Of a stretch of 64,000 nt of DNA, positions 2,780 to 54,824 are shown piece by piece (within the stretch, counting starts at the first letter, position 1; every line of letters starts with the position of its first letter). A model generated the notes under the pieces. That model saw nothing but the letters and a program-made list of their open reading frames with translations. It was not told where the DNA came from and searched no databases. Source of the stretch: Rheinheimera riviphila (GTDB lineage Bacteria; Pseudomonadota; Gammaproteobacteria; Enterobacterales; Alteromonadaceae). Made by a program: the position numbers and the translations under genes. The stretch spans positions 62,001 through 126,000 of the forward strand of contig NZ_SACS01000006.1 of the NCBI RefSeq assembly GCF_004005945.1. Direction: 5' to 3'.

Positions 2780-5189
2780 TCGGATCTCTACCTTAGGCCA
2801 GACACTTAATTTACGCACCGGCTGGCGGTCGTTATGGCGGCAGCAACTGCATATGCTGCTGAATTTGTCAGGCTTGGCACTGGGTTTAGCGGCGGCTTTA
2901 TTGATTTTATTGTTCGTGCGGTATGAGCTGGGTTTTGATCAAAATCAGCCAAATGCTGAACACAGTTATCGCATGGAGCAGCATTTTGAGTCCTTGGGGC
3001 AGCGTTTTCCGGTGGCCAGCCCGGCAATGCTAGGGCTGCTGCAAAATTATGATGCGAATATCAAAGTGACGCGAATGACTTCCGCGGCGCCAGATGTGGT
3101 GGTGCCAAGCCGCGGCACGCAGGGGCTGAAGCTGGTGCAGCCACTGGCTGTCGAAGCAAACTTCACTGATTTTTTTCAGGTTGACGTGCTGCAAGGCGAT
3201 TTGGCGGCTGTGCTGCAAAGCCCACAGCTGATTGCATTGTCAGAGCAAGAAGCCGAGCGGTTATTCGGTACTGTATCTGCCCTTGGCCAGCAATTGCAGC
3301 TCGGCGACAAACCTTATCAGGTTGGTGCCATTTTTGCGCCGCTGTCAAAGCAAAGTCACCTGCCCGCCGGTTCGTTGCGCCGGATCGACGATAAGGAAAT
3401 CGGTAATCCGCTGCGGGTCAACAATGTGTATTTATATCTGCATTTACCGGCGGAGCTTGACGCAGCGCCGATGTTACAACAGCTGACAACGCACTTGAAT
3501 CAGCAGGCTTATGAAGGTCGGCCGATGAGCGAACTGCACCTGCGTAAACTCACCGACATCCACTTACATTCAGCATTGTCCTATGAGTTTAAAGTCAACG
3601 GCTCTTTTGGCACGGTGCAGATTTGCCTGGGTCTGGCGGCTTTGCTATTGGTGATAGCTGGCATTAATTTCGTCAATATGAGTATTGCCAGAGCGGGTCA
3701 GCGCGCCAAAGAGGTGGGGGTTCGTAAGGCTTTGGGCGCCAGTCGCGGCCAGCTGATAACGCAGTTTTTAATGGAGTCTTTGTTATTGGTGGCGATGGCT
3801 GGCTTGTTGGCGGCGGTGCTGGTGGAGTTGTGTTTGCCCTGGTTTAGTCATTTGGTCGATCGGCAACTAAGCCTGGATTATCTTGGCAGTTTTGGCTTGA
3901 TGCTGAGTGCGGTGGTGCTGGTGATTGGCCTGCTGGCAGGGGCTTATCCGGCGTTTTTCCTGTCGGCCTTTGATGCGAAAAAAGTACTGAGTGGTGATTT
4001 TCAACGGGGGCAGACGGCGATTTGGCTGCGGAAAATGCTGTTAGTGTTACAAGGGGCGATCAGCGTCGGTTTGTTGGTCAGTACCTGGGTGCTGCAACAA
4101 CAACTGACCTTATTACAAAGTATGCCCACCGGTTATGAGCGGCAGGCGCGGTTGACCATCAACGAAGTTGAAAATCAGCAGATGTTCTGGGATAGCACAC
4201 ACAGCCTGACCCATTTATTGGCGCGGCAAAGCGGCGTGCAGGCGGTGACGCTGCTGGATATGGGGCTGACCGATACCATTTCCCAGGCGCAAACATTACA
4301 GGTGCCGGGTCAGCCCGATTTACCGCCGGTGCGCCAGTTAGGTGCTGGTTATCAGGTCGTTGCGGCGGCGGGATTTCGGTTATTGGCGGGTCGTGATTTT
4401 AGTGCCGATTATGCCGACTGGTATCAGGTTGACGAAAAGCAGGCGCAGGCGGCGGTGTTGATCACTGAATCGTTGTTACATAAAGCTGGTTTGCAAAGTC
4501 CTGAGCAAGCGATTGGTCAAGTCTGGACGATCCCGGGGGAGCAGGTGCCGCTGAAAGTTCAGGTCGTTGGGGTGATTGCCGATTTACAAATCGGTTCGGC
4601 CGTGGGAACGCCCGAACCACTGCTGGTGATTTGTGGTCGCTCACCGATGCGCATTGCTCAGCTCCTGATTAAAGTTGACCCGGCGCAAGCGCTGACGTTA
4701 CGCCCGCTGCTGGAGCAGCAAGTGCAACAGAAACTACAAAAAAGTGAGTTAAAAAGCAGTTGGATAGCCGATGATTTTTATAGCCTGTATCAGGGGCAAC
4801 GCCGGCAAAGTCAGGTCGTGACGCTGTTTGCTTTGCTGGCGGTTGGGCTAACTTTAGCGGGTTTGTTTGGTTTGTCGGCGTTCAGCACCGCGCAGCGCAG
4901 CCGGGAAGTCGCGATGCGTAAAGTGCTCGGCGCCAGCCGCCTGGCGCTGGTGCAACTATTAGCCAATGAATACCTGCGGTTAATGTTGGTTAGTATCGTG
5001 CTGGCCACACCACTGACTTACTGGTTATTGGAACAATGGCTGGCGCAGTTTTCGGCGCAGATCAGCCAGTCGCCTTTTGCTTACCTCGCTGCCGCGGCTT
5101 TAACTCTGGGCTTAAGCTGGCTCACCGTCGCCAGTCTGGCCTGGCAAGTGACCAATCGCTCTCCGGCGATGGTACTGCGGCAACTCTGA
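2772..5189 (+). CDS. FtsX/MacB-type ABC permease, duplicated 8-TM form
   Basis: An 805-aa integral membrane protein. It has an N-terminal membrane helix followed by a large periplasmic core, then three FtsX helices with the motif EVGVRKALGAS. A second half repeats the plan and ends with EVAMRKVLGAS and three helices. The duplicated motif shows that one polypeptide supplies both permease halves. GGAGG at 2761-2765 lies inside the ATPase gene and sets the ATG at 2772. Family members move peptides, antibiotics or lipoproteins mechanically through a TolC channel. No outer-membrane factor gene is nearby, so a shared TolC is likely. Confidence 0.9.
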   Translation: MASRISTLGQTLNLRTGWRSLWRQQLHMLLNLSGLALGLAAALLILLFVRYELGFDQNQPNAEHSYRMEQHFESLGQRFPVASPAMLGLLQNYDANIKVTRMTSAAPDVVVPSRGTQGLKLVQPLAVEANFTDFFQVDVLQGDLAAVLQSPQLIALSEQEAERLFGTVSALGQQLQLGDKPYQVGAIFAPLSKQSHLPAGSLRRIDDKEIGNPLRVNNVYLYLHLPAELDAAPMLQQLTTHLNQQAYEGRPMSELHLRKLTDIHLHSALSYEFKVNGSFGTVQICLGLAALLLVIAGINFVNMSIARAGQRAKEVGVRKALGASRGQLITQFLMESLLLVAMAGLLAAVLVELCLPWFSHLVDRQLSLDYLGSFGLMLSAVVLVIGLLAGAYPAFFLSAFDAKKVLSGDFQRGQTAIWLRKMLLVLQGAISVGLLVSTWVLQQQLTLLQSMPTGYERQARLTINEVENQQMFWDSTHSLTHLLARQSGVQAVTLLDMGLTDTISQAQTLQVPGQPDLPPVRQLGAGYQVVAAAGFRLLAGRDFSADYADWYQVDEKQAQAAVLITESLLHKAGLQSPEQAIGQVWTIPGEQVPLKVQVVGVIADLQIGSAVGTPEPLLVICGRSPMRIAQLLIKVDPAQALTLRPLLEQQVQQKLQKSELKSSWIADDFYSLYQGQRRQSQVVTLFALLAVGLTLAGLFGLSAFSTAQRSREVAMRKVLGASRLALVQLLANEYLRLMLVSIVLATPLTYWLLEQWLAQFSAQISQSPFAYLAAAALTLGLSWLTVASLAWQVTNRSPAMVLRQL

Positions 5190-51728: not shown

Positions 51729-54353
51729 CTAAAACTGATAATTCACCGACAAATTCACCACCCGGCCGCGTAGGTTGTACAGGCTGGTGTCGAAATAGTC
51801 GCCGCCTGCTGCAACGTCAAATGGTGGATCGCGATCCAGCAGATTGTTGACGGACAAGGTCAGTACCGTATCGGTAAAACCCAGGTAATTGACTTGGCTA
51901 TTCCACTGGGTATAACTGGCAACCTGCAGTTTTAACCCCAGATTGCTGCTGGCGGTGACCACTTTTTGGCGATAACCGCTGGTGAAATCGGCACTCAGAT
52001 TTGCTTGCCAATCGCCGTGCTGCCAGTTCACGCTGCTATTGCCGCGCCAATCCGGCAAAGCGCCAAACTGATTATTGCCCGCGCCATCAATTTCCGGTTG
52101 ACCGGCGACCAGTGCCTGTTTGTAATCCAAAAGCCGCGACCAGACGGTTTTAAACTTCAGCTGATGGCCGCCCGCCAACTGCAGTTGGTAATTGGCGTCG
52201 ATATCAAAACCCGAAGTGGTGCGGGTGCCCTGATTTTTGTATTGATTGGTGATGAGCTGCAAGCGGCCCTGGGCGTCACGGCGGATACGATCGGCAAACA
52301 AACTTTCGTTATTGATAATGTACTGGGCATTGTCCGGACCAATGATTTGATCCTGCTCAATCCGGAACACATCCACCCCAATACTGGCGTGTTGCTGAAA
52401 CGACCAAATGACACCGGCATTGAGGTTGTTCGAACGCTCAGCCTGCAACTCATTATTGCCACTGCGGATACTGGTGAAACCACGGCGGGAACCGGGTTCC
52501 AACGGATCTTTCGGGTCAATCACAGTGCCATAACTGATGGTGTTGCTGTCGGCAATTTCCGGCAACGACGGTGCCCGGAAGCCGCGGGACCAGGAACCGC
52601 GCAGCAGCCAATCGTCACTCAGCACATAATGCAGCCCCAGTTTTGGTGAAACTGCACTGCCGGAATCGTCATAGTGATCGGCGCGACCGGCAACACTGGC
52701 GGTTAGATCGGTATAAAGCGGCACACTGAATTCAGCAAAACCGGCCAGTAATTCCCGCTCACCCTTCACCAGATTAATAGCCGGGCGTAATTCGGTGCCT
52801 GACAACACTTCCGGTGACGTACCGGCGTCCATTGTTTCGCGGCGTAAATCGACACCGCTGGCAAAGCCAAGTGGACCGTAAGGCAGTTCCAGCAAAATGG
52901 TGCTGGCGGTCAGGTTAAGTGAAGACAGCTGATACTGGCCCGGACGCCGGGTTTGCAAACGCAGTTTATCCAGCACTTCGGCCGAATTCTGGCGACCATC
53001 AAAACGATAGCTGCCGTTGGCCAGTGCTTTTTCGAACTCGTAACGATTGACGAAGTTGCCTGCATATTCCCGCTGTAAGCTCGAAGATTGCAGCGCATTA
53101 ATGTTGATGTCCCAGTCTTCACCCTGATATTTCAGGCCGGCCAGCACCCGGTTAAAAATCTGGTTGTTTGATTTCAGCCGTGGCCCTAAATCAAACAAAG
53201 TGTATTCAAATGGCAGTGCTTTATTGCTGGGGTTATCGGGGTGGCCGACCGGTAATGCCGTTGCAATATCGACCAGACTACCGCTCGATTGCTGATAAGC
53301 ACGCAGGCCTGGGCCGACCGTCAGCGGCGCGCCAAAAGTCATCGCTGAATCGTTGTAGCTGTACAACACTTCCGCCGTTGCCTGCCATTGGTCGTTCAAC
53401 TGAAAAGTGCCGTTGATGGAGGCCTGGCGCCGGGTGACTTCAGGTTGCAAACTGTTAAATGGCTGGGTATTAAAGGCACAGACCGAACCGGTTTGGCCAC
53501 TTCCTGGGGTAGCAAAATCACTGCGTGGCCGAAGGATCGAACCTTGCGGGCAGTTAGTCACCGGCACAGGCAGCGCCGGATTGGCTAAAAACGCGCCACC
53601 AGCGGTGCTCCAGCCCGCTAACCGGCCACCCGGTAAATGGCGGAAATCACCCGATTTTAATAAGTCGCGTTGATCAGCGGTTAAGTGCTCGCGGCTGAAC
53701 CAATCCAGACTCAGGCTTAGGTTATAACCATCGCTATCGACATCACCAATACCGGTCACCAGACCCGCCGAATATTGCGCCAGTCCGCCCGCCGTGGCGT
53801 TACCGGCCGCTGCACTGAGGCTGGTTTGCTGATAATCTTTTTTCAGAATAATGTTCACCACCCCGGCAATGGCGTCTGAACCATAAACCGCCGAAGCGCC
53901 GTCTTTTAATACTTCGACCCGCTCGACTGAACTTAATGGCAAAGCATTCAGATCAACAAAATTGTCCTGGGTATTGAGGGCAAAACCATAACTGGAAACT
54001 CGCTGGCCGTTCACCAGCACCAGGGTGTTTTTCGGACTTAAGCCGCGTAAACCGATCGAAGCCGAACCTGCGGAAAAACTGCCGGTGTATTGCTCGTCAA
54101 AGCTGTTGCCCGAGTTGATGGTCAGGTCGCGCAGCACATCGGTCAGTGTGACTTTGCCGCTCTGGCGGATTTCGTCGCCGGTGAGCAGCAATAACGGCGT
54201 GGCGTTTTCCTGATCCACGCGTTTGATATGCGAGCCGGTAATAGCAATTCGCTCGGGCAGAACTTCGGCGCTGCTGATGTCTTCAGCAAATACAGGCTGT
54301 AACAATACCGGACCGCTCAGCGCAAATGCGACAGCAGAAAACTTAAACTTCAT
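51729..54353 (-). CDS. TonB-dependent receptor with upstream Cys-rich leader ORF
   Basis: An 874-aa receptor. The signal peptide ends at about residue 24 (QPVFA); the plug is RIAITGSHIKRVDQENATP, GLRGLSPKNTLVLVNGQR and AVYGSDAIAGVVNIILKKDY; the barrel ends RGRVVNLSVNYQF. GAGG lies 7 nt before the ATG at 54353. It is closely similar in plan to the 866-aa receptor at 23.6 kb. A 46-codon ORF ending in four Cys codons sits 121 bp upstream on the same strand, so expression may be attenuated by translation of that leader. Confidence 0.92.
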   Translation of the reverse strand: MKFKFSAVAFALSGPVLLQPVFAEDISSAEVLPERIAITGSHIKRVDQENATPLLLLTGDEIRQSGKVTLTDVLRDLTINSGNSFDEQYTGSFSAGSASIGLRGLSPKNTLVLVNGQRVSSYGFALNTQDNFVDLNALPLSSVERVEVLKDGASAVYGSDAIAGVVNIILKKDYQQTSLSAAAGNATAGGLAQYSAGLVTGIGDVDSDGYNLSLSLDWFSREHLTADQRDLLKSGDFRHLPGGRLAGWSTAGGAFLANPALPVPVTNCPQGSILRPRSDFATPGSGQTGSVCAFNTQPFNSLQPEVTRRQASINGTFQLNDQWQATAEVLYSYNDSAMTFGAPLTVGPGLRAYQQSSGSLVDIATALPVGHPDNPSNKALPFEYTLFDLGPRLKSNNQIFNRVLAGLKYQGEDWDININALQSSSLQREYAGNFVNRYEFEKALANGSYRFDGRQNSAEVLDKLRLQTRRPGQYQLSSLNLTASTILLELPYGPLGFASGVDLRRETMDAGTSPEVLSGTELRPAINLVKGERELLAGFAEFSVPLYTDLTASVAGRADHYDDSGSAVSPKLGLHYVLSDDWLLRGSWSRGFRAPSLPEIADSNTISYGTVIDPKDPLEPGSRRGFTSIRSGNNELQAERSNNLNAGVIWSFQQHASIGVDVFRIEQDQIIGPDNAQYIINNESLFADRIRRDAQGRLQLITNQYKNQGTRTTSGFDIDANYQLQLAGGHQLKFKTVWSRLLDYKQALVAGQPEIDGAGNNQFGALPDWRGNSSVNWQHGDWQANLSADFTSGYRQKVVTASSNLGLKLQVASYTQWNSQVNYLGFTDTVLTLSVNNLLDRDPPFDVAAGGDYFDTSLYNLRGRVVNLSVNYQF

Positions 54354-54474
54354 GATCAACCTCAAAAAAATCAACGTGCCGCTGGCGAAAAGCCGTGCAG
54401 CATCACAGGCAAAACCTGTCGGATAAAAAAATACGTGGGGGTGTCAGCTTATCGTGCTGACCAATAACGCAGGA
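54354..54474 (-). promoter_or_regulatory. Leader between Cys-rich ORF and receptor gene
   Basis: On the leftward strand it contains a GTCAGC/GCTGAC hairpin (about 54443-54461), a T7 tract about 10 nt later, and an ACAGG/CCTGT hairpin just before the receptor ribosome site. These are candidate attenuation elements; no textbook terminator is formed. Confidence 0.45.
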
Positions 54475-54615
54475 TCAGCAGCAACAACAACTGCCGGCGA
54501 CCACTGACAGGCGCTGGTGGCACATTCGTGGCTGACAACAATCGACCGTCAGTTGGCTGACGTATGGGTCTTGTGGGTATGCGCGTTGAAAAGGCGCCTT
54601 GGTAAAAATATTCAT
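54475..54615 (-). CDS. 46-aa Cys-rich leader peptide ending in four Cys
   Basis: ATG at 54615 with AGGA 8-9 nt upstream; stop TGA at 54475-54477. The peptide starts MNIFTKAPFQRAYP, has a CC pair at 26-27, C at 32, and ends GSCCCC-stop, seven Cys of 46 residues, encoded by both TGT and TGC. Poly-Cys short ORFs act as cysteine-responsive attenuators in mycobacteria, and Cys-rich upstream ORFs control copper- or sulfur-linked genes in other bacteria (established elsewhere). Here it precedes a TonB receptor gene. An alternative is a free Cys-rich or metal-binding peptide. Read directly from the sequence; function inferred. Confidence 0.6.
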   Translation of the reverse strand: MNIFTKAPFQRAYPQDPYVSQLTVDCCQPRMCHQRLSVVAGSCCCC

Positions 54616-54824
54616 GTACGGAATCCTATCATAACTGCTTCAGGCTTCCGGAGGTCCGGTGAGCAACAAGGTCTGGTGGCGCTAACACAGTGTGATGTTG
54701 TTGTGTAAAATAACATCCATTTAGCCGTCCAGATGTCGGCGGCATTCTACTGAGGATTTCTAATAAACCAAAGTGTTTTTTGCGCGGCTTGTTATTCTAT
54801 TTGGTTATATGTATTTTCCAGAAT

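Follow-up and report, generated by a model that had tools for sequence, protein, structure and literature searches.

The 64,000-nucleotide stretch of Rheinheimera riviphila DNA analysed here (the window) contains a gene for an 874-residue TonB-dependent receptor (TBDT; 51729..54353, minus strand) with the Pfam domains Plug and TonB_dep_Rec_b-barrel (PF07715 and PF00593), which we presume to be the regulated gene. Upstream on the same strand, to which all leader and promoter features given below belong, lies a Cys-rich leader ORF (uORF; 54615-54475, translation MNIFTKAPFQRAYPQDPYVSQLTVDCCQPRMCHQRLSVVAGSCCCC) of 46 codons. It contains seven Cys and ends in four consecutive Cys codons (TGT TGT TGC TGC, 54478..54489) directly before its UGA stop, and a Shine-Dalgarno-like (SD-like) TAGGAT is found ahead of its ATG (54623..54628). 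The receptor ATG at 54353 follows 121 nt past the uORF stop. Three short inverted repeats occupy this gap: hairpin 1 (GTCAGC/GCTGAC, 54443..54461) and hairpin 2 (ACAGG/CCTGT, 54405..54419), both also found in Rheinheimera sp. SA_1, and hairpin 3 (GCTGC/GCGGC, 54378..54401), where SA_1 has a CTGCA/TGCAG-type stem. A preliminary description of this DNA had reported a 46-residue ORF with a ribosome site, seven Cys and a four-Cys end, followed by a hairpin-bearing leader of about 120 nt before the receptor; the reading frame and the gap bear this out. The unit described here extends from this leader (54354-54615, uORF start to receptor) up to position 54809.

Such an ORF is rare in the window. A CCCC ending occurs in one of its 1137 ORFs of 15-80 codons, and the pattern TGYTGYTGYTGYTRA, which admits only TAA and TGA as stops, has a single match in the 64 kb, the uORF itself, and none in 100 shuffles.

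Transcription is predicted to begin well upstream of the uORF. A sigma-70-like promoter, consisting of a -10-like hexamer TAGAAT (54744..54749) and, 16 nt before it, a -35-like hexamer TTGGTT (54766..54771) that was picked by eye and is absent from the promoter-scan output, would place the start near 54737 and give a 122-nt 5′ leader before the uORF start. The preliminary description had named a transcript starting downstream of 54475 as a refutation of its proposal; the predicted start lies instead upstream of the ORF. At this position we find a MetJ-box-like operator, CGACATCTGGACGGCT (54723..54738), composed of two tandem 8-mers that match at 12 of 16 positions. Further upstream, at roughly -72 to -55 relative to the predicted start, is the site TATAACCAAATAGAATAA (54792..54809), which we infer to be a candidate CysB-like (LysR-type) operator. 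No other 16-mer in the window scores as well as the MetJ-like site, and among 50 TBDT upstreams of the genome only that of the window receptor scores at least 12.

Close orthologues of the receptor (67-100 % identity) are present in 10 of 22 genomes of the genus, and each of the ten is preceded by a Cys-rich uORF of 29-46 codons with 3-7 Cys. These uORFs are of three types. Type A comprises the window and SA_1, whose receptor is 96 % identical to that of the window, with seven and five Cys and a CCCC or CCC end. Type B (five loci, 3-6 Cys) has ends ranging from LWMCC to LMC, and type C (three loci, 3-4 Cys) ends in ARMCC; eight Rheinheimera uORFs thus finish on one or two Cys without a long run. 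The promoter region is retained as well: in all ten orthologues a TAnnAT hexamer is aligned directly before the MetJ-like site, whose best score is 12-13 of 16. An inverted repeat, CCGG-ACCT-CCGG, lies 5′ of the window uORF (54648..54659), and here the block CTCACCGG....CCGGAAGCC is retained in groups A and C. A protein homology search with the uORF returned matches in 48 of 98 genomes at E values up to 1; besides the window itself SA_1 alone was convincing (E 1.5e-12), and the remaining matches, at E 0.015 or weaker, were discounted. The SA_1 leader (L032, about 3561-3690) holds roughly 127 nt of extra, palindromic-looking sequence (by eye) between its MetJ-like box and its uORF, which the window does not have.

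The arrangement extends beyond the genus. A receptor scan of named genomes returned 13 loci: five of Lysobacter, four of Dyella, that of SA_1 and three further ones. Among 233 genomes of the Dyella sp. OK004 family, which we take to be the Rhodanobacteraceae, 20 carry a receptor orthologue at a cut-off of E up to 1e-180, and all 20 have a short ORF upstream that finishes in a Cys cluster. The ends of this ORF (uORF1) are variable: AMCCCC, AMCCCCC, AMCCGC, AMCCCCCCC, AMRCCC, ACGCCC, CCRCCR, AMCCCR and CCCCRC. At 13 of the 20 loci a second Cys-rich uORF (uORF2) with an RMC core lies nearer the receptor, and a strict DNA pattern for CRMCxIG is found in 6 of the 233 genomes, one copy each. Overall, every one of the 30 close orthologues found has a Cys-rich uORF ahead of it, these uORFs being of four sequence types; the conservation of the frame that the preliminary description had proposed to check is thereby established. 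Lysobacter orthologues have a comparable ORF, picked by eye, with 1-3 Cys and a pN/pS of 0.97; none was seen in the upstreams of L037 and L043. In five Lysobacter loci (L033-L036 and L038) a GGYRGG-TGATGCCC...GGGCTGA-CCTGCC-like hairpin recurs at the end of the comparable ORF, some 300-350 nt ahead of the receptor match; by eye, its UGAUG/CUGA loop is kink-turn-like.

Controls show how seldom such Cys ends arise elsewhere. A strict test requiring at least three Cys among the last six residues is passed at 22 of 30 loci, whereas only one of 49 further TBDTs in the genome passes it, as do 7 of 600 shuffles; the script count of 23 of 30 includes L085 via another frame, the uORF itself passing in 22. 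The eight loci that fail are those of Rheinheimera groups B and C. Cys-cluster-ended ORFs were absent ahead of all 15 distant paralogues from the genus (32-35 % identity). The second TBDT paralogue within the window (L106, 23585-26164, corresponding to G000:C81:85585-88164; 33 % identity) has no Cys-cluster-ended uORF, only a 12-codon ORF ending in CCLK; the distant paralogue L100 (G006), the nearest case, is preceded at about 101 nt from the receptor match by an ORF of 24 codons whose last residues, CCLTFCCSP, include four Cys. We take both to be chance ORFs. A Cys-rich ORF before another TBDT of the genome (L166) was also discarded, the DNA there reading by eye like a GGDEF protein.

Within the uORFs, length differences between relatives are whole codons. 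The pN/pS ratio is 0.47 in group B, 0.62 in group C, and 0.75 and 0.70 in D1 and D2 (the D groups covering six loci); for the single A pair, window and SA_1, it is 1.9, from 3 synonymous and 21 nonsynonymous changes. Dyella-family Cys clusters favour the rare TGT over TGC, with 53 TGT to 24 TGC compared with 17 to 56 in 34 long ORFs (Fisher p 2e-8, the rows being related). This preference is absent from the Rheinheimera uORFs, at 27:20 versus 56:40 in the long ORFs of the window.

Candidate sites of the sulfur type also accompany Dyella-family receptors. At 15 of the 20 loci the promoter follows a common pattern of TTGACA, 16-18 nt, an AAAT-ended hexamer and a AGACGTCYATACCGCC-like sequence, in which box 1 matches at 5-8 of 8 positions and box 2 at 4-6 of 8; at the other five, this TTGACA/AAAT pattern revealed no promoter. 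The MetJ-like site is weaker here, at 9-12 of 16. All four Rheinheimera-genus genomes tested have a MetJ gene, that of the window (G000) included; the one Lysobacter genome tested lacks it. With tandem AGACGTCT-like boxes at the predicted promoter and a MetJ gene in the genome, the locus has both marks by which a putative MetJ regulon member is recognised. MetJ targets named in the available portions of the literature are btuB and, in Alteromonadales, btuFCD. In the Dyella family MetJ is near-universal, exceeding the cut-off in 226 of 233 genomes, and its presence is therefore useless as a discriminator there. This near-universality (G565 included) contrasts with a 2014 survey which, in the part of it that is accessible, lists SamR but not MetJ in the four Xanthomonadales genomes it covers.

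The CysB-like motif, a pattern derived from these same receptor leaders, matches the window once when up to three mismatches are allowed, with 0.15 expected and 15 of 100 shuffles having one. A one-mismatch match in genome G003 (L208) adjoins a gene for a NifS-type cysteine desulfurase. At two mismatches, three genomes (G000, G003 and G015) contain 14 sites compared with 9 for the reversed control, so that the motif by itself is hardly enriched. These 14 sites comprise, among others, three receptor leaders, three positions ahead of cysG (one per genome) and one ahead of cysJ (G003). Given the MetJ-box-like operator and a site related to those of cysG and cysJ, the receptor looks like a member of the sulfur regulon.

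The uORF is a short ORF with clustered codons of a single amino acid, as is expected of a leader-peptide attenuator. We propose, with a probability of roughly 0.6 judged from sequence, that it is a cysteine-responsive attenuator controlling a sulfur-regulated TBDT. Transcription would start near 54737, with activation via the CysB-like site and repression by MetJ when SAM is plentiful, and a ribosome would follow RNA polymerase, translating the uORF. With ample Cys-tRNA, this ribosome would finish and leave, and receptor transcription or translation would be attenuated within the 121 nt that follow. When Cys-tRNA is short, the ribosome would stall on the Cys codons beside the stop, the start of the gap would be covered and the receptor would be made. 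The tie to sulfur or cysteine supply suggested in the preliminary description thus holds in part: the uORFs at every close orthologue found, the MetJ-like operator and the cysG/cysJ-related site speak for it, but folding does not reveal how stalling would alter receptor expression. Counting against the proposal are the short Cys ends of eight Rheinheimera uORFs, the lack of a TGT preference in that genus, the high pN/pS of the A pair, the few Cys in the Lysobacter ORFs, the slight enrichment of the CysB-like motif and the weaker MetJ-like site of Dyella.

How a stalled ribosome would be read out is less apparent. Gap lengths range from 121 to 172 nt in Rheinheimera and from 142 to 147 nt in six Dyella-type loci. 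A terminator scan of the leader revealed no convincing intrinsic terminator; the lone terminator-like match, an alternative 5-pair stem followed by T7 (54384-54372, minus strand), is weak and compares with 1.0 expected by chance. In simple folding, a ribosome positioned at the uORF stop did not alter SD accessibility in any consistent way. SD sequestration and intrinsic termination are thus unsupported by simple folding and scanning, and the readout is invisible in the sequence. Our preferred guess, made by analogy, is that the stalled ribosome would exclude Rho, as in CruR-bfrG of Bordetella pertussis, where ribosome position is described as controlling Rho termination between a uORF and a TBDT gene (PMC9426467, accessible part). 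The C-rich gap of the six Dyella-type loci (39-46 % C versus 20-25 % G) would suit Rho. In the window gap, C barely exceeds G (25 % versus 24 %), which makes the Rho argument weak there.

A simple tRNA-Cys sensor leaves one feature without a role. The uORF contains a CGA-AUG codon pair (Arg30-Met31, 54523..54528, minus strand), which such a sensor does not need and which therefore counts against it. When Cys-rich ORFs were searched, without regard to codon choice, for RM with C or P as the next residue, this core turned up in 10 of 10 Rheinheimera uORFs and as 13 of 13 Dyella-family uORF2 cores, that is, at 23 of 30 loci compared with one of 49 control TBDTs, the control using CGG. The Arg codon is CGA in 23 of 23 cores, which come from related rows and are not 23 independent events, although CGA accounts for only 5.5-6.7 % of Arg codons. 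Other RM pairs of these leaders use CGC, one in L139 and a further RMC in uORF1 of L219. Six Dyella-type uORF2 have the C-terminus RMCRIG or RMCHIG. The pair could act as a slowly translated codon, as an arrest motif or through an RNA contact. A class-wide scan of coding DNA for C-x-C-R-M-C (TGYNNNTGYCGAATGTGY, 369 genomes) gave 27 places in 24 genomes versus 2 control matches and was dropped as evidence, since by eye no TBDT was recognised among the downstream ORFs of the 27 loci. Two of these, L121 and L122, have accB-like genes (by eye) downstream, and their matches presumably represent the conserved HMSNVH stretch of AroQ in another frame.

The constancy of this core raises the alternative of an arrest peptide, in which Arg(CGA)-Met-Cys/Pro together with Cys side chains would stall the ribosome and sense a ligand such as cysteine, another thiol, copper or zinc. 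Its recurrence, its fixed and otherwise infrequent Arg codon and the RMCRIG/RMCHIG termini are in keeping with this, and the accessible part of PMC9426467 provides a precedent for a uORF before a TBDT. Yet the core is missing from 7 of the 20 Dyella-family loci, and the varied uORF1 ends (MCCCC, MCCGC, MCCCCCCC, GCCC, CCRCCR) fit the counting of codons. The N-terminal parts differ widely and the Dyella family prefers the rare TGT, which again argues against a sensing peptide; we consider this alternative unlikely. Equally tentative is a broader proposal, in which the uORFs would form a new class of ligand-sensing arrest peptides. With Arg(CGA)-Met-Cys as their core and frequently paired in tandem with a poly-Cys uORF, they would read cysteine as codon, side chain or free ligand and gate a dedicated outer-membrane uptake of organic sulfur under CysB-/MetJ-type control.

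CGAATG is fixed at the nucleotide level, and a hairpin (CATCGC/GCGATG) adjoins the Cys codons of the Dyella-type uORF1, as might be expected if the leader were a structured RNA, either a riboswitch or a protein-bound leader, whose UGY-rich and CGAAUG segments are read as codons by accident. We regard this as improbable: the third positions of Cys codons vary, relatives differ in length by whole codons, and each group keeps its start and SD-like sequence. Folding the four groups separately gave different structures. The Rfam search of seven loci returned seven sub-threshold matches with none in the leaders, and that of the window leader one sub-threshold miRNA match alone. The retained start codon and SD-like sequence would also accommodate a small Cys-rich protein with a function in trans, or a constitutive uORF that does no more than adjust receptor levels. 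Conservation between groups is, however, poor outside the Cys-rich part, the uORF lies in cis before the same receptor at every locus found, and it belongs to no Pfam or NCBIfam family, all of which makes this reading very unlikely. That the uORF is a chance ORF is hardly credible, since frequent as short ORFs are in the window, its recurrence at all close orthologues and the shuffle and control-TBDT comparisons contradict it.

Canestrari et al. reportedly identified mycobacterial polycysteine ORFs in 2020, for example the one upstream of cysA2, as cysteine-responsive attenuators. In mycobacteria, short ORFs with Cys clusters at operon heads have been proposed as cysteine-directed attenuators (PMC4633059), a precedent cited elsewhere as translation attenuation (PMC13236596); in the accessible parts of these sources, cysteine attenuators are described from mycobacteria and mostly ahead of cysteine-metabolism genes. 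The uORF resembles them in being a short ORF with a C-terminal Cys cluster. The mycobacterial ORFs are leaderless, whereas a 122-nt 5′ leader and an SD-like sequence are predicted here, and they mostly precede cysteine-metabolism genes rather than an outer-membrane receptor of Gammaproteobacteria. Also unlike them, the present system includes uORF2 at 13 of 20 Dyella-family loci, the CGA-AUG core, and MetJ- and CysB-like sites.

CruR-bfrG shares with our locus a Cys-containing uORF ahead of a TonB-dependent receptor gene. In the accessible text CruR is a copper sensor of 145 residues that belongs to DUF2946 and carries CXXC and RAPP, whereas the uORFs here have 23-56 codons, no Pfam match, a Cys run at the very end and candidate operators of the sulfur type. 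The preliminary description had offered copper or zinc sensing by the nascent Cys cluster as an alternative; nothing specific favours it, the RAPP motif being absent from the uORF sequence and the uORF having no Pfam or NCBIfam match. The leader of btuB is similar in that metboxes lie at the transcription start, about 300 bp before the receptor gene and ahead of a long leader with a second regulator (PMC3228920, in part). That regulator is a cobalamin riboswitch, in place of which we find a Cys-rich uORF. In CutF-CutO of Rhodobacter capsulatus the next gene is likewise controlled by an upstream ORF whose product detects a signal (PMC9973294, accessible part); CutF is described there as a copper sensor that is exported and has a Pro-rich end, and the uORF matches no such family. 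A literature search, which left most subscription journals outside its reach, found no Cys-rich uORF before a MetJ- or CysB-linked TBDT. If our reading is correct, sulfur status would be read three ways before one import gene in Gammaproteobacteria, an orphan TBDT family would emerge as candidate organic-sulfur importers, and CGA-AUG would become an arrest-motif candidate open to test.

More distant relatives of the receptor bear on its possible cargo. Plasmid-borne homologues are 37-38 % identical to the Dyella receptor in the 8 of 16 matches listed; two upstreams were inspected and contained no Cys-ended uORF, the L237 ORF having an internal SCSCC. Of five neighbourhoods of such homologues, three adjoin ExbB/ExbD and two have neither ExbB/ExbD nor dipeptide ABC genes. 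The three are the Burkholderia-group loci L237, L238 and L241, and in L237 and L238 dipeptide ABC transporter genes lie directly 3′ of the receptor homologue. At most, these neighbours hint at peptides as the cargo of the receptor. In Dyella, locus L147 (8725-14141) carries a second TBDT-like ORF, recognised by eye, about 50 bp after the receptor on the same strand, perhaps in one operon with it.
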